Below, piece after piece: positions 992-8,095 of a DNA stretch of 33,116 bases. The translations under genes and the position numbers were made by a program. Source of the stretch: Flavobacteriaceae bacterium (GTDB taxonomy: Bacteria > Bacteroidota > Bacteroidia > Flavobacteriales > Flavobacteriaceae). The notes beneath the pieces are model-generated. The model worked only from the letters and a program-made list of their open reading frames with translations, was not told the DNA's origin and did not search any database. Positions within the stretch are counted from its first letter, which is position 1. Each line of letters opens with the position of its first letter. Location: positions 1 to 33,116 of the forward strand of contig JAKMGK010000009.1 in NCBI GenBank assembly GCA_022424955.1. Reading direction: 5' to 3'.

Positions 992-1654
992 ATGTTTTAC
1001 CACACGCATCCTTATCCTCCCTATATTTTAGAAGACAGTACGCGTTTGATTGTGGGCACCTTGCCACCGCCGCGTTTTACCACAGGGGATTTAAATGATG
1101 TAGATGTGGATTTTTGTTATGGCAGCAGTAATGGCTTATTGTGGAAAGTGTGGGATCGTATCTATGATCTGGGTTTGGTATATGAAAACACACACTTTGC
1201 CATCGAGCAACGTAAGGCGTTTTTGAAGCGGGAAAAAATAGGGGTTTGCGATATTGTTGGAGCGGCTTATCGGGATAAAATTGATGCTTCAGATTTAGGA
1301 ATGCAACAAGTTAAATTAAGAGATTTACTAGGGATTTTACAAAAGTATCCAGCAGTATACAGCTTGATTTTTACAGGCGGAAATAGCAAGAATGGTCCAG
1401 AGTATTTCTTTCGCAAGCTACTTAAAACAGCGAAAATCCCTTTGGAATGCCTAGACGATCAGGTTCCCCGAAAGCATCAATTTGTCTGTGCAGGTAGAAA
1501 AATAACAACCCACAGTCTCACGGCTCCCTCAGGAACCGCTAATCGCGCCATTGGGAGTATGCCAATTTACAAAGTAGCCAAAGCCCAAGATCCCCATTAT
1601 ACCACCCTTGACTTTCGCGTGGAACAGTATAGAAAAGTATTTTTTAACGAATAG
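992..1654 (+). CDS. Uracil-DNA glycosylase family protein
   Basis: 220-aa ORF with UDG-superfamily-like segments (RLIVGTLPPPRF, GVCDIVGAAYRDKIDASD, THSLTAPSGTANRAIGS). Confidence 0.65.
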   Translation: MFYHTHPYPPYILEDSTRLIVGTLPPPRFTTGDLNDVDVDFCYGSSNGLLWKVWDRIYDLGLVYENTHFAIEQRKAFLKREKIGVCDIVGAAYRDKIDASDLGMQQVKLRDLLGILQKYPAVYSLIFTGGNSKNGPEYFFRKLLKTAKIPLECLDDQVPRKHQFVCAGRKITTHSLTAPSGTANRAIGSMPIYKVAKAQDPHYTTLDFRVEQYRKVFFNE

Positions 1655-2405
1655 ATTGGACAAAATCCTCAATCTTGTTAACCCCTTCTTTTTCTAAAAA
1701 CTTAATAAAAGCTGATCCAATGATGGCTCCACGAGAATGTGAACTAGCTGCTTCATAGGTTTGGGCATTGCTAATACCAAAACCAACCACAGTAGGGGTG
1801 TTGAGGTTCATATTGGCGATGCGTTGGAAATAGTCTGTTTGGGTGTTGCCAAAACTACTTTGTGCTCCGGTTACAGCTGCACTGGAGACCATGTAGATAA
1901 ATCCATTAGACACTTGGTCGATATAACGAATGCGCTCTTCGGGAGTTTGTGGGGTGATGAGGAACATATTATATAAACCGTGTTGATCAAATAAAGCTTT
2001 GTAATCCTCGTGATAAACATCTACGGGCAAATCTGGAATAATCAAGCCGTCGATTTCAATGGCTTCACAGCGTTGACAAAATTTTTCGATACCATATTGC
2101 ATCATGGGATTAAAATACCCCATTAAAACCAACGGAATGTCAATGTGTTCTCTTATGTTTTCTAGCTGTGTAAAGAGTTTTTCTGTGGTCATCCCATTGC
2201 GCAATGCTTGGGTAGAGCTTTCTTGGATGGTAGGCCCATCGGCTAAAGGATCAGAAAAGGGAAGGCCAATCTCGACCATATCCACTCGTGCGGCTTGTAG
2301 ATTTTTTAAGATAGGTACCGTGTCTTCAAGGCTAGGGTAACCTGCAGAAAAATAAATGGACAAGAGTTTTTTGTCCTCTTGAAATTTTTGGTCAATTCGA
2401 TTCAT
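1644..2405 (-). CDS. trpA: Tryptophan synthase alpha chain
   Basis: 253 aa; MVEIGLPFSDPLADGPTIQESSTQALRNG is diagnostic for TrpA; operon position. Confidence 0.97.
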   Translation of the reverse strand: MNRIDQKFQEDKKLLSIYFSAGYPSLEDTVPILKNLQAARVDMVEIGLPFSDPLADGPTIQESSTQALRNGMTTEKLFTQLENIREHIDIPLVLMGYFNPMMQYGIEKFCQRCEAIEIDGLIIPDLPVDVYHEDYKALFDQHGLYNMFLITPQTPEERIRYIDQVSNGFIYMVSSAAVTGAQSSFGNTQTDYFQRIANMNLNTPTVVGFGISNAQTYEAASSHSRGAIIGSAFIKFLEKEGVNKIEDFVQSIR

Positions 2406-3586
2406 TATAACTTAAAATAGTCAATATAGGTATCCAAGTCTTTGTCTCCACGACCTGAACAATTAAATACAATTACTTCTTCTGGTCCAAACTTACGCAC
2501 GTCTAGTGCGGCAAAAGCGTGGGCCGTTTCAATAGCGGGAATAATTCCTTCCATTTGAGAAAGGGTTAAGCCCCAGTCCATTGCTTCTTGATCTGGGATA
2601 GAGATAAATTCTGCACGTTTACTTCTAAATAAATGAGCGTGCATGGGCCCCACACCAGGATAGTCTAATCCAGCCGAAATAGAATAAGGCTCGGTTATTT
2701 GTCCATCTGGGGTTTGCATCAACAAGGTTTTGCTTCCGTGAATAATCCCTTCTTTCCCCAGGGCAGAAGTGGCGGCACTTTCGCCAGTATCAATGCCTTT
2801 TCCAGCTGCTTCGACAGCGATAATATTTACTCGTTCATCGTTGAGGTAGTGGTAGTACAAACCAGCAGCATTGCTTCCGCCCCCTACACATGCAATCACA
2901 TGATCGGGATAATCGCGGCCTTCTAATTCATGTAATTGCCATTTTGTTTCTTTACTAATAACCGATTGAAAACGAGCTACCATATCGGGATAAGGGTGTG
3001 GTCCTACTACAGAACCAATGATATAGTGTGTATCAACAGGATTATTGATCCAATCGCGAATGGCTTCGTTAGTGGCGTCTTTTAGTGTTTTACTCCCAGA
3101 TTGTGCTGGTCGAACTTCGGCACCTAGCATTTTCATACGCGCTACATTGGGCGCTTGTCGCTTAATGTCTAATTCTCCCATGTATACAATACATTCGATT
3201 CCCATTAAGGCACAAACGGTAGCAGTGGCTACTCCGTGCTGTCCTGCCCCAGTTTCTGCGATAATGCGGTTTTTTCCAAGGCGTTTAGCTAATAAAATTT
3301 GTCCAATGGTATTGTTGACTTTATGCGCACCAGTGTGACAAAGGTCTTCTCTTTTGAGATAAATTTTAGTATTGTATCGTTCTGACAAACGTTTTGCAAA
3401 ATACAAAGGTGTGGGGCGACCCACATAGACCTTGAGCAAATCGTCAAATTCTTTTTTAAAGTCTGGTTCTGCAGCAATTTTCAAATAGTTTTCCCGTAAT
3501 TCTGCTACATTAGGGTACAACATTTCTGGAATAAAGGCGCCACCAAAGTCGCCGTAATATCCTTTTTCATCTACATTATAGTTCAT
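2405..3586 (-). CDS. trpB: Tryptophan synthase beta chain
   Basis: 393 aa; HTGAHKVNNTIGQ PLP-lysine region and AETGAGQHGVATA. Confidence 0.98.
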   Translation of the reverse strand: MNYNVDEKGYYGDFGGAFIPEMLYPNVAELRENYLKIAAEPDFKKEFDDLLKVYVGRPTPLYFAKRLSERYNTKIYLKREDLCHTGAHKVNNTIGQILLAKRLGKNRIIAETGAGQHGVATATVCALMGIECIVYMGELDIKRQAPNVARMKMLGAEVRPAQSGSKTLKDATNEAIRDWINNPVDTHYIIGSVVGPHPYPDMVARFQSVISKETKWQLHELEGRDYPDHVIACVGGGSNAAGLYYHYLNDERVNIIAVEAAGKGIDTGESAATSALGKEGIIHGSKTLLMQTPDGQITEPYSISAGLDYPGVGPMHAHLFRSKRAEFISIPDQEAMDWGLTLSQMEGIIPAIETAHAFAALDVRKFGPEEVIVFNCSGRGDKDLDTYIDYFKL

Positions 3587-4193
3587 ACAATTCTTTTTTA
3601 AATTGTTTTAGCGCTTCTATTTTTTTAAGCCCTGGAGCGAGTTCAAATTTACTATTTACATCAATAGCAAAGAGGGGTAAATTGGTATTTAATAATTCTT
3701 TGATTTCTTGTGTGTTTTCTAACCCAATTCCGCCACTTAAAAAGAAGGGTTTTTGAGAGGGGTATTCTTTTAAAAGACCCCAGTCAAAGGTGTAGCCATT
3801 TCCGCCCGGCAGGGCTCCTTTGGTATCAAATAAAAAGAAATCACAACTGCTTTCATAAGCCTCAAGCGTGCTAAAGTCAAAAGTGTTTTTAACAGAAAAC
3901 GCTTTGATGACTTCTACCCCAAAACCCTGTATCAATTGACAATAATTAGGCGTTTCTTCGCCGTGTAATTGTACTGCTTGCAATTGATGTGTGCTAATGC
4001 TACTTTGAATATAATCCACAGATGCATCGACAAAAACACCTGTTTTTTTTATGCTTTTATCCAGTTTTGGCGTGGTCTCATTGACATAACGACTCGAGGG
4101 TGCCCAGAAAATAAAGCCTATATAATCTGGTTGCAAATCGCTAAGCGCAACAATATTATTGGGTTCTCGCATGCCACAGACTTTTAATTTCAT
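3576..4193 (-). CDS. trpF: Phosphoribosylanthranilate isomerase
   Basis: 205 aa; MKLKVCGMREPNNI..., LSGGIGLENTQEI; between trpB and trpC. Confidence 0.95.
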   Translation of the reverse strand: MKLKVCGMREPNNIVALSDLQPDYIGFIFWAPSSRYVNETTPKLDKSIKKTGVFVDASVDYIQSSISTHQLQAVQLHGEETPNYCQLIQGFGVEVIKAFSVKNTFDFSTLEAYESSCDFFLFDTKGALPGGNGYTFDWGLLKEYPSQKPFFLSGGIGLENTQEIKELLNTNLPLFAIDVNSKFELAPGLKKIEALKQFKKELYEL

Positions 4194-4975
4194 GCTTCTA
4201 ACTGTTGTATAAAATCTTGTGCCGCTGCACCAGGATCGTTTGTTTTCATAAAGTTTTCGCCCACTAAAAAACCTTGATAACCATAGGTCATTAAATCTTT
4301 GATAGCGCTTACGTCACTTATTCCACTTTCAGATACTTTGACAAATTCTGCGGGGATTTTTTCTGCTAAAGTTCTACTTGTGTCTAGAGAGACCTCAAAG
4401 GTTTTAAGATTGCGATTATTTACGCCTAACATATCTATGGTAGGGAGGATAGATTTTTCAAGCTCCTCTAGATTATGCACTTCTAATAAAACATCTAAAC
4501 CTAAGCTTTTTGCGGTAGTAGAGAGTTGCTGTATTTCTGCACGCGTTAAAACGGCAGCGATTAATAAGATGATATCGGCCCCGTGGGCTTTGGCTTCAAT
4601 TAATTGATATTCGTCAATGATGAATTCTTTCCGCAATAGCGGAAAATCTGTTGCGGCTCTTGCTAAGGTTAAATCGTCTAGCGATCCCCCAAAATATTTA
4701 CCATCTGTTAAGACAGACATTCCGCAAACTCCAGCGTTTTCATAGCCTTTAGCCACCGTTGCTATAGAGAGGGAACTATTGATATTTTGTTTCGATGGGG
4801 AACGACGCTTATGTTCTGCGATAATCCCAGAGGCACTTGCTCTAAGACGATCTGATAAAGCATTAGCGGGCCGATCAAATAGTGGAGAGGCTTCCCAGTA
4901 AGTGGATGGAAATAATTGCTTCCGTTGAGCAACTTCGATTTTTTTGTCGGCAACAATTCGGTCTAGGATGCTCAT
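4190..4975 (-). CDS. trpC: Indole-3-glycerol phosphate synthase
   Basis: 261 aa; IIAEHKRRSPSK, VLTDGKYFGGS, LGVNNRNLKTFEV, VSESGI. Confidence 0.97.
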   Translation of the reverse strand: MSILDRIVADKKIEVAQRKQLFPSTYWEASPLFDRPANALSDRLRASASGIIAEHKRRSPSKQNINSSLSIATVAKGYENAGVCGMSVLTDGKYFGGSLDDLTLARAATDFPLLRKEFIIDEYQLIEAKAHGADIILLIAAVLTRAEIQQLSTTAKSLGLDVLLEVHNLEELEKSILPTIDMLGVNNRNLKTFEVSLDTSRTLAEKIPAEFVKVSESGISDVSAIKDLMTYGYQGFLVGENFMKTNDPGAAAQDFIQQLEA

Positions 4976-5967
4976 GTTTTACTTAAGTTTTGAAGTTTAG
5001 TTAAGGCCTCAAATGCTTTTCCAGAAAGCAAGGATTCTTTGGCTTTTTCAAAGCCTTCAATTGGGGATAAATCTAATGCGGTAGCAATGGCCATTCCCGC
5101 GTTAGCACAAACGACTTCTTGTTGCGCCTGGGTTCCTTTGTTTTGAATAACATTCATAAAAATCTTTGCAGAAGAATCCACATTATCTCCACCAGCAATT
5201 TGATTCGCTTCGAGTGGCAATACCCCAAAGTCTTGTGGGGAAAGCACGCGTTCACTTTTTTTGCTAAAAGCCTTTGTGGGGCCCGTTAGCGAAATTTCGT
5301 CATAGCCATTTAGGGCATAGAGAATGGTAAAGTTGGTGTCTGTCTTTTGAAAAAGATAGTGGTATAAACGCGCTAATTCTAGGTTAAATACTCCCGTCAA
5401 TTGATTTTTAGGAAAAGCAGGATTAACCAGCGGGCCTAACATATTGAAAAAAGTTTTAACCCCTAGCTCTCGTCTAACTGGGGCCACGTTTTTCATGGCA
5501 GGGTGGAAGAGGGGAGCATGAAGAATACAAATCCCCGCTTGATCTACACAGCGTTTTAAAAAATCTTGCTCATTTGAAAATTTGACCCCTAAAGCTTCTA
5601 AGACGTTACTTGAACCACAGCCAGAAGAAACCCCATAGTTTCCGTGCTTAGTCACTTTTATACCAGCCCCAGCGGTAACAAAAGAAGAAAGGGTAGAGAT
5701 ATTAAAAGTGTCTTTTCCGTCTCCTCCAGTACCACATAAATCGATGGTATCAAACTCACTTAAATCGATGGCGATACACAATTCGAGTAGTGCCGCGCGG
5801 AAACCTTCGAGTTCCTCTAAGCTAACACTACGCATCATATAAACAGTGAGGAAAGAAGCGATTTGAGAGGTGTTATACTGTCCATCGGCGATATTGATGA
5901 TCATTTGCCTCGCCTCTTCTTTGCTGAGTTGTTGATGTTGTATGAGTCTGTTGAGTATGGCTTTCAT
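4972..5967 (-). CDS. trpD: Anthranilate phosphoribosyltransferase
   Basis: 331 aa; DLCGTGGDGKDTFNISTLSSFV and KHGNYGVSSGCGSSNVLEALG. Confidence 0.97.
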   Translation of the reverse strand: MKAILNRLIQHQQLSKEEARQMIINIADGQYNTSQIASFLTVYMMRSVSLEELEGFRAALLELCIAIDLSEFDTIDLCGTGGDGKDTFNISTLSSFVTAGAGIKVTKHGNYGVSSGCGSSNVLEALGVKFSNEQDFLKRCVDQAGICILHAPLFHPAMKNVAPVRRELGVKTFFNMLGPLVNPAFPKNQLTGVFNLELARLYHYLFQKTDTNFTILYALNGYDEISLTGPTKAFSKKSERVLSPQDFGVLPLEANQIAGGDNVDSSAKIFMNVIQNKGTQAQQEVVCANAGMAIATALDLSPIEGFEKAKESLLSGKAFEALTKLQNLSKT

Positions 5968-5969
5968 GC

Positions 5970-6533
5970 TTAACTATTGATCCAGTTATCTAATATTTTT
6001 TTTCCGTGTGGAGTGAGTACAGATTCAGGGTGGTATTGCACCGCACAAACGTCATAGGTTTTATGCCGCAGCGACATTAATTGTCCTTCTTCATCTACAG
6101 AAGTAGCGATAAGTTGGTCTGGTAAAGGACTTTCTACCACCCAGGAATGGTAGCGCCCAATATCAAAAACTGGGGGGAGGTCTTTAAATAAGACATCTTC
6201 TTGAATGACTTTTACGGGGGTAGCTATTCCGTGATAGACCTTGTCTAAGTTCTTGAGACTAGCGCCAAAAACCTCACCAATCGCCTGTTGACCTAGACAA
6301 ATCCCTAAGATTTTTTTAGCAGGAGCATAGCGTTCAATCGCTGCTTTTAGTAAGCCAGATTCGTCTGGAATTCCAGGGCCTGGTGAAAGGAGGAGTAGCG
6401 GGTAGTCTTCTAGCTCGTCTAACTCAAATTGATCGTTTCTTTTTACGGTAACTTCGCAACCTAGTTCTTCAAGATAGTGAACCAGATTGTAGGTAAACGA
6501 ATCATAATTGTCGATAACAAAAACTTTCTTCAT
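5970..6533 (-). CDS. trpG: Anthranilate synthase component II (glutamine amidotransferase)
   Basis: 187 aa; IDNYDSFTYNLVHYL, ILGICLGQQAIGE, AVQYHPESVLTPHG. Confidence 0.95.
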   Translation of the reverse strand: MKKVFVIDNYDSFTYNLVHYLEELGCEVTVKRNDQFELDELEDYPLLLLSPGPGIPDESGLLKAAIERYAPAKKILGICLGQQAIGEVFGASLKNLDKVYHGIATPVKVIQEDVLFKDLPPVFDIGRYHSWVVESPLPDQLIATSVDEEGQLMSLRHKTYDVCAVQYHPESVLTPHGKKILDNWINS

Positions 6534-6535
6534 TA

Positions 6536-7936
6536 TTATACGTTTTCTGCGAGGGTTAGTGCTTTGTCTAAGGCCGCTAATTTATTATATACTTCTTGTA
6601 ACTCACTTTCTGGGACAGAATTGGCAACAATTCCTGCTCCTGCTTGATAGTGGAGTTGATGGTTTTTACTCAAAAAAGATCGGATGATGATGGCGTGATT
6701 AAAATTACCGTGAAAGTCCATATATCCTATGGCACCGCCATAAAAATTACGTTGGGTAGTTTCATAACGATCAATTAATTGTAATGCTTTGTGTTTTGGC
6801 GCACCACTTAGTGTACCCGCCGGGAAAGTATCTGCCACTACCCGGAAGGTTTTGGCTGCTTTTTTCATGGTGCAAGTTACTTTAGACACCAAGTGAATGA
6901 CATGGGAATAAAATTGAATTTCCCTGTTTTTTTCTACGGCTACTTCAGAGCCATTTCGACTTAAATCATTTCGGGCTAGATCAACCAGCATGACGTGTTC
7001 GCTGTTTTCTTTAGGATCTTTGGCTAATTCTCCAGCGGCGAGAGCGTCTTTTTCGTCATCGCCTGTTCGGCGGAAAGTCCCTGCAATGGGATGGATTTCT
7101 GCTTTGCCTTCTTGGACAATTAATTGTGCTTCTGGCGAGCTTCCAAAAATTTTAAAGTCTCCGTAGTCAAAGAAAAACAAATAGGGAGAAGGGTTGATCG
7201 AACGCAGGGTGCGATAGACATTAAACTCATCGCCTTTAAATCCTTGAGAAAAGCGCCGTGAGAGAACCAGTTGGAAAACGTCCCCTCTAAAACAGTGCTC
7301 TTTCCCTTTTTTGACAAAATCAATAAACTGTTCATCGGTTAGATTTGATGTTTTATCGCCTACTTTTTCAAAACTAAAATAACTGCTGTTTTTTGCATTG
7401 AGCAGTATTTCGATTTCCCCTAAATTATGCTCTCCTTTATAAACGTGTGAAAATAAATGTGCTTCATGATTAAAGAGGCTAATGGCAATAATATTTTGAT
7501 AAACTGCATAGTATATATCTGGAATATCCTGCCCAGGTTTTGCCTTGTTGAGGTCAATATTTTCGAAACGATCTACTGCATCGTGAGCGACATAACCAAA
7601 AATTCCATTGCTAATAAACTTAAATGGGAAGCGTTCGCTATCGAATTGTTGCGAAAATTGATGAATACGTTCTGGGATATCCATGCTAGTCTCTGCTTGC
7701 ACAACTGTCGAACTTCCATCAGGATAATGCGTACTTAAAACGCCGTTTTTTAATTCAATTGATGCAATGGGGTTACAGCAGATATAGGAAAAATCATTAT
7801 TATTTGCATGATAGTCACTACTCTCTAATAATAGGGAATGAGGGAAGATATCGCGGAATTTGAGATAGGCGCTTACAGGTGTAAGCGTATCGGCGAGTAT
7901 TTTCTTATGTTCTGTTTTAAGGGCAAATTTTTTCAT
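6536..7936 (-). CDS. trpE: Anthranilate synthase component I
   Basis: 466 aa; chorismate-binding motifs PSPYLFFFDYGDFKIFGSSPEAQL, HPIAGTFRRTGDDEKDALAAGELAKDPKENSEHVMLVDLARNDL; first gene of the trp operon. Confidence 0.97.
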   Translation of the reverse strand: MKKFALKTEHKKILADTLTPVSAYLKFRDIFPHSLLLESSDYHANNNDFSYICCNPIASIELKNGVLSTHYPDGSSTVVQAETSMDIPERIHQFSQQFDSERFPFKFISNGIFGYVAHDAVDRFENIDLNKAKPGQDIPDIYYAVYQNIIAISLFNHEAHLFSHVYKGEHNLGEIEILLNAKNSSYFSFEKVGDKTSNLTDEQFIDFVKKGKEHCFRGDVFQLVLSRRFSQGFKGDEFNVYRTLRSINPSPYLFFFDYGDFKIFGSSPEAQLIVQEGKAEIHPIAGTFRRTGDDEKDALAAGELAKDPKENSEHVMLVDLARNDLSRNGSEVAVEKNREIQFYSHVIHLVSKVTCTMKKAAKTFRVVADTFPAGTLSGAPKHKALQLIDRYETTQRNFYGGAIGYMDFHGNFNHAIIIRSFLSKNHQLHYQAGAGIVANSVPESELQEVYNKLAALDKALTLAENV

Positions 7937-7951
7937 AGGGTGCCAAAATTA

Positions 7952-7980
7952 AAAAAGGCCTGTCGTGATGACAAGCCTTT
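7952..7980 (-). terminator. Intrinsic terminator/attenuator upstream of trpE
   Basis: Minus strand AAAGGCTTGTC-ATCAC-GACAGGCCTTT-TTT: 11-bp stem (one G-T), 5-nt loop, T-run, lying between the leader ORF and the trpE start. Confidence 0.88.
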
Positions 7981-8017
7981 GATATGTTGATACAGCGTGT
8001 TTCACGAATAAATTATT

Positions 8018-8059
8018 TTATTCGTTCCACCAATTTGAGCTGTTGTTTCTCGTTTTCAT
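8018..8059 (-). CDS. trpL: trp operon leader peptide with tandem Trp codons (MKTRNNSSNWWNE)
   Basis: atg aaa acg aga aac aac agc tca aat tgg tgg aac gaa taa directly upstream of the attenuator hairpin and trpE. Confidence 0.85.
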   Translation of the reverse strand: MKTRNNSSNWWNE

Positions 8060-8064
8060 TGAGT

Positions 8065-8095
8065 CAAATATAATTCAAAAAATTAATGTGTTCAA
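8065..8095 (-). promoter_or_regulatory. Bacteroidota-type promoter of the trp leader
   Basis: Minus strand TTG (8095-8093), 20-nt spacer, TATATTTG (8072-8065), matching the TTG/TAnnTTTG consensus; 5 nt before the leader ATG. Confidence 0.7.

Follow-up and report, generated by a model that had tools for sequence, protein, structure and literature searches.

A probable tryptophan-leader attenuator related to the Bacteroid-trp RNA, with a conserved candidate antiterminator pairing at the terminator apex, upstream of trpE in a marine flavobacterium

The region upstream of trpE in the DNA analysed here (a stretch of 33,116 nt, the window) very probably encodes a ribosome-mediated transcription attenuator of the trpEGDCFBA operon, as judged from sequence comparison and RNA folding. 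Compared by sequence, the element is a divergent homologue of the Rfam family RF01692 (Bacteroid-trp). The conserved partner of its antiterminator strand (X, UCGUGA) is probably the loop of the terminator together with the top of the terminator 3′ arm (Y, UCACGA), and not mainly the 5′ arm. The element is ordinary in kind, yet it is more informative than a first reading of the sequence suggested, since a specific antiterminator can now be proposed and put to the test. It offers a concrete, testable switch for a listed family whose model ends short of the switching strand, and it indicates that Trp-leader attenuation extends through much of Bacteroidia, a class from which there are few descriptions of leader-peptide control. 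The compact geometry of the antiterminator and the near-leaderless sensor ORF depart from the textbook trp operon.

The host, a marine flavobacterium, is represented by an assembly of 1.8 Mb in 114 contigs. The nearest named relatives of its TrpE are from Flavobacteriaceae metagenome assemblies (94-81% identity) and from Candidatus Arcticimaribacter forsetii (83%). The features of the locus are listed in Table 1.

Table 1. Coordinates of the trp leader and operon in the window
Feature	Position	Strand	Basis
Bacteroidota -7 promoter element TATATTTG (TAnnTTTG)	8065..8072	-	sequence; same motif in relatives
Leader peptide ORF MKTRNNSSNWWNE* (TAA 8020-8018)	8018..8059	-	sequence; WW or WWW leaders among relatives
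Tandem Trp (regulatory) codons TGG TGG	8027..8032	-	two- or three-codon run in nearly all of 138 leaders
P1 hairpin, 9 bp, ACGAATAAA-ATAA-TTTATTCGT; putative anti-antiterminator hiding strand X	8004..8025	-	folding
Strand X, UCGUGA; putative antiterminator 5′ strand, inside and just past the P1 3′ arm	8002..8007	-	comparison
Strand Y, UCACGA; partner of X, terminator loop and first bases of terminator 3′ arm	7963..7968	-	comparison
Intrinsic terminator hairpin, 11 bp, AAAGGCTTGTC-ATCAC-GACAGGCCTTT	7954..7980	-	folding; covariation in 7/10 pairs
Terminator T-run	7951..7956	-	sequence
trpE, first structural gene	6536..7936	-	Pfam PF00425 + PF04715
trpG, trpD, trpC, trpF, trpB, trpA	1644..6533	-	Pfam

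An earlier reading, made from the sequence alone, had described the leader ORF with adjacent TGG TGG codons, the 9-bp hairpin, the 11-bp terminator with its T-run and trpE, all of which were confirmed to the base; the operon order that it gave, trpEGDCFBA, agrees with the Pfam assignments. The 161-nt leader folded more stably than all of 200 shuffled versions (z -5.06). Against shuffles P1 had a z of -3.2 and the terminator, with a folding energy of -15.3 kcal/mol, a z of -6.7. This terminator is the sole terminator-like site within 700 bp, where shuffling gave an expectation of 0.2.

In the window 5 nt separate the end of TATATTTG from the leader ATG. The same TAnnTTTG motif stands ahead of the leader start in the 138 loci extracted from relatives, mostly with a gap of 4-5 or 16-18 nt. 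TAnnTTTG is the sigma-A -7 box of Bacteroidota as described for Flavobacterium psychrophilum in PMC9723704. If transcription starts a few bases past the -7 box, the leader mRNA in the window is predicted to be nearly leaderless.

The order of elements upstream of trpE was kept in relatives: the -7 box comes first, then a leader that starts with ATG or GTG and carries WW or WWW, then a strand with UCGUGA at its end, and after a linker a terminator resembling AAAGGCUUGUC-AUCAC-GACAAGCCUUU. Three consecutive Trp codons were found in 110 of 138 leaders and two in 27, so the WW of the window is the minority variant. The sequence-only reading had named loss of the tandem Trp codons and the terminator among relatives as the outcome that would speak against it; both are conserved, and comparison strongly supports the ribosome-mediated attenuation that it proposed. 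Missing from it were the known RNA family, the adjoining promoter and the near-leaderless start. It had also suggested looking for covariation in three helices. The terminator (7 of 10 pairs in the leaders of relatives) and X:Y covary, but P1 treated as a single fixed-column helix had just 65% of its cells paired on one register and was abandoned in that form. Because clades build P1 in differing registers, per-sequence folding was used instead, which gave a mean z of -2.4 across 71 leaders, with 89% of them under -1. A conserved hairpin in the linker was likewise rejected: it was suggestive within single genera, yet the mean z over 63 sequences was -0.13.

X and Y are exact complements in the window. 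Taken alone, the pair is within chance, as the pattern TCGTGA-N20-50-TCACGA occurs twice genome-wide and a control pattern three times, with no excess. The case for the pairing comes from a test set of 71 non-redundant Flavobacteriales leaders, in which 95.3% of the X:Y cells were paired and three pairs showed compensatory changes (0/500 shuffles), whereas sliding the partner lowered pairing to 77% or less at every offset. When the register was left free, the leaders scored 16.37 with their own partner versus 14.95 with permuted partners (sd 0.18, 0/500), and for 24 divergent leaders the corresponding values were 15.4 and 12.1 (0/2000). Examples of divergent pairs are GUCGUAAG:CUUACGAC (L082) and UUGUGAAG:CUUCACGA (L023, L030), and two members of another family have UGCGGGA:UUCCGCA (L091) and UGUGGG:CCCACA (L094). 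Kinship inflates the covariation counts, but the changes cited here fall in separate lineages. In some near relatives the pairing is weak, with four pairs in L104 and five in L103, L105, L110 and L116. The sequence-only reading had found the 8007-8002:7968-7963 pairing and half dismissed it as 'only 6 bp'; the pairing proved real and exact, and its conservation and covariation in the 71 leaders do not bear out the dismissal.

How far the pairing extends beyond X:Y bears on the nature of the antiterminator. It may be of the classical type, with X, ACA and GCU together displacing the terminator 5′ arm (UGU, GGC) and X:Y merely its start. The stalled-state fold of the window has this form: it comprises UCGUGA:UCACGA, ACA:UGU and GCU:GGC, 12 bp in all, with an energy of -10.5 kcal/mol. 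The candidate antiterminator of hisG in the same genome also pairs with the 5′ arm. In other Bacteroidia, where own-partner pairing again exceeded that of permuted partners (18.0 vs 14.0, sd 0.65, 0/1000), the partner is mostly the top of the terminator 5′ arm and the loop. Across the 71 Flavobacteriales leaders, however, extension into the 5′ arm was no better than with shuffled linkers (8.92 vs 8.59, 36/300; 4.9 vs 4.6 arm bases paired), and it was rejected as a conserved feature. We regard a classical antiterminator as a real contender, though on the doubtful side. The different partners (loop and 3′ arm top here, 5′ arm at hisG, 5′ arm top and loop elsewhere) indicate that the geometry varies around the terminator apex.

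With a confidence a little short of even, we propose instead that the Flavobacteriaceae trp antiterminator pairs, over 6-8 bp, with the loop and upper 3′ arm of the terminator and not with the 5′ arm, that it works kinetically or by forming a pseudoknot and has a near-leaderless leader peptide as its sensor, and that the same module, with Lys codons, has been reused ahead of thrA in Chryseobacterium-like genomes. The trp antiterminator of Escherichia coli uses the 5′ arm of the terminator. A possible departure from the enterobacterial design, raised when the sequence was first read, is thus borne out by the conserved partner, loop plus 3′ arm top.

The window contains a short ORF with tandem regulatory codons ahead of an intrinsic terminator, and comparison and folding point to a mutually exclusive antiterminator that a stalled ribosome would free. 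Transcription would start directly downstream of TATATTTG, a few bases from the leader ATG, and a ribosome would trail RNA polymerase through the leader ORF. When charged tRNA-Trp is scarce, the ribosome would stall at TGG TGG and cover the 5′ arm of P1, leaving X free to pair with Y as Y exits the polymerase. Since Y spans the loop and the uppermost bases of the 3′ arm, the terminator would fail to nucleate in time and trpEGDCFBA would be transcribed; Trp-starved ribosomes thus probably keep the trp genes on. With plentiful Trp, or with an untranslated leader, X would be masked, either by the ribosome or within P1, and formation of the terminator would end transcription.

The positions of the elements suit this scheme. 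In the 71 leaders the distance from the last Trp codon to the start of X is 14-23 nt, and 69 of them have their stop codon between -13 and +9 relative to X. The probability of X:Y pairing was calculated for the point shortly before completion of the terminator 3′ arm. Its mean was 0.24 and its median 0.02 in the absence of a ribosome; the corresponding values were 0.92 and 0.97 when a ribosome occupied the last Trp codon, and 0.06 and 0.00 when it occupied the stop codon. As these are equilibrium folds with assumed standard footprints, and X and Y were chosen by best fit, the contrast between the states weighs more than the values. In about a quarter of the relatives X:Y was likely without any ribosome. 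The window differs from most relatives, which have the stop codon in or near X: its stop codon is 13 nt ahead of X, and with a ribosome on it the probability of X:Y was 0.96. Since such a ribosome leaves X free, termination at high Trp must depend on P1 re-forming after release. The stalled-state fold of the window was the best one at first, and the terminator fold overtook it when some 7 nt of the terminator 3′ arm had been exposed. The full terminator being more stable than X:Y, antitermination must be kinetic, a race as in other attenuators.

Pairing of X with the loop is topologically compatible with the lower terminator stem and, as nested folding cannot assess such a contact, X:Y might be a kissing or pseudoknot interaction that stabilises the terminator. 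We consider this improbable, because X is free only under a Trp stall and a pro-termination contact would then turn off Trp synthesis just when Trp is lacking.

Outside the family of the window, 38 regions upstream of trpE were sampled from Bacteroidia, including one from its own order; under strict rules, 24 of the 38 held a WW-containing leader followed by a terminator. No such combination appeared on the opposite strand (0/38), in shuffled sequences (0) or in ilvD-region stretches (0/36). Same-strand genes end a short way upstream of the leader (8195, 8111) and intrinsic terminators are ordinary between operons, but these controls and the joint occurrence of promoter, WW or WWW leader, X and terminator in more than 100 relatives make it highly improbable that the terminator merely ends the upstream YceI/mini-CDGSH transcript and that the Trp codons are accidental. 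Upstream of ilvD in the genus of the window no leader was found in the loci available, several of which stop short of the upstream region.

Two loci of another family (L091, positions 1-420, and L094; family f2) carry two tandem WWW leader-terminator units ahead of one trpE (MQKINTIWWWQSKL, then MLNNKINNWWWPV...), and a clear X:Y is seen in the second unit only. In two loci of family f5 (L327, L328) a WWW leader and terminator precede trpB, not trpE.

RF01692 was described as 'Bacteroid-trp', the 'Bacteroidete tryptophan peptide leader RNA' (Weinberg et al. 2010, PMC2864571), and Table 1 of that paper places it among likely cis-regulatory RNAs and does not class it as a switch. The window scored 33.5 bits (E 0.017) against the family, below the gathering cut-off of 49 bits, and by Rfam's own rule it is therefore not a member; the cut-off was passed by 11 of 20 relatives tested. 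Homology to such members was found with a model (R2) built from 30 other leaders, with the clade of the window left out. The training set included L033, L057, L061, L068, L136 and L013, each above 49 bits against RF01692. R2 gave the window 64.5 bits (E 7.5e-10) in its own genome, a single strong match, the next-best scoring 30.1 bits. Within the same bacterial family, weak extra matches of another model (R1) were rejected as ordinary gene-end terminators.

RF01692 and the window have in common that a Trp-codon leader stands ahead of Bacteroidota trp genes and that a P1-like hairpin with UCGU(A/G)A at its end is followed by GGCUUGUC. Unlike RF01692, the window has WW in place of WWW, a shorter linker and a stop codon 13 nt ahead of X. 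The RF01692 model stops at the terminator 5′ arm, so that the terminator 3′ arm and X:Y lie outside the model. With the E. coli trp attenuator (RF00513, Trp_leader) the element shares tandem Trp codons, a protecting hairpin, a terminator and three-state logic; it differs in its nearly leaderless start and in the conserved antiterminator, whose partner is the loop and upper 3′ arm of the terminator and not the 5′ arm. An Rfam search with RF00513 gave no match in the window up to E 5, and several distant Bacteroidia approach the cut-off of that family.

Trp riboswitches, T-boxes and TRAP-like systems govern trp genes elsewhere, and attenuation could in principle be exerted by a riboswitch, T-box or protein of this sort and not by a stalled ribosome. 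We hold this to be very unlikely indeed: no such Rfam family was matched, the sole relevant match being the peptide-leader family RF01692, and the invariant feature is an open leader with in-frame tandem Trp codons at a fixed distance from X.

Attenuators of this kind are already known. PMC2965389 (2010) states that leader-peptide attenuation had previously been known only in Proteobacteria and Actinobacteria, and adds Firmicutes. A survey of the same year by Lopatovskaya et al., cited in PMC4833913, may extend to Bacteroidetes. A passage of PMC6414381 compares Bacteroid-Trp with the E. coli leader and places it upstream of trp in F. psychrophilum, and in the same species PMC9723704 reports transcriptome clues of leader-peptide attenuation ahead of amino-acid operons; the antiterminator pairing is not given in those passages. 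As far as this literature shows, the switching strand is newly pointed out here.

The genome of the window has a similar arrangement upstream of hisG (G000:C106, L228), with TATATTTG, a His-rich leader (MRNNHLHIHYMQFRSNER) and a terminator with T-run; the candidate antiterminator strand, UCAAACG, pairs with CGUUUGA of the terminator 5′ arm. This attenuator resembles the trp element in its -7 box, short leader, terminator with T-run and competing strand, and differs from it in the His codons and the classical pairing. Similar His-rich leaders were found in most hisG relatives examined.

A trp-type module with the same P1/X strand and the same terminator apex precedes thrA-like genes (MKVLKFGGTS) in Chryseobacterium-like genomes and one Flavobacterium-like genome (L083, L087-L090, L324, L325, L329-L332). 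Its leader, e.g. MILSNLKKGKKQNLRRTS, has Lys codons at the position of the Trp codons, and from its sequence the module is a possible lysine-sensing attenuator. Upstream of thrA in the genome of the window (L277) there is a possible leader (MIKIKIELKTLPFYTPWGY) and a long-range GAGTTAAAG/CTTTAACTC pairing, with no clear terminator, and another kind of control may operate there.

In the window a minus-strand ORF of 26 amino acids (MPNRPKCGCGNTQNPDGFCDGSHAKK, 8191-8111) with a minimal CDGSH-like iron-sulfur motif separates the trp leader from the YceI-like gene, and counterparts occupy the same site in two other loci (L003, L004).
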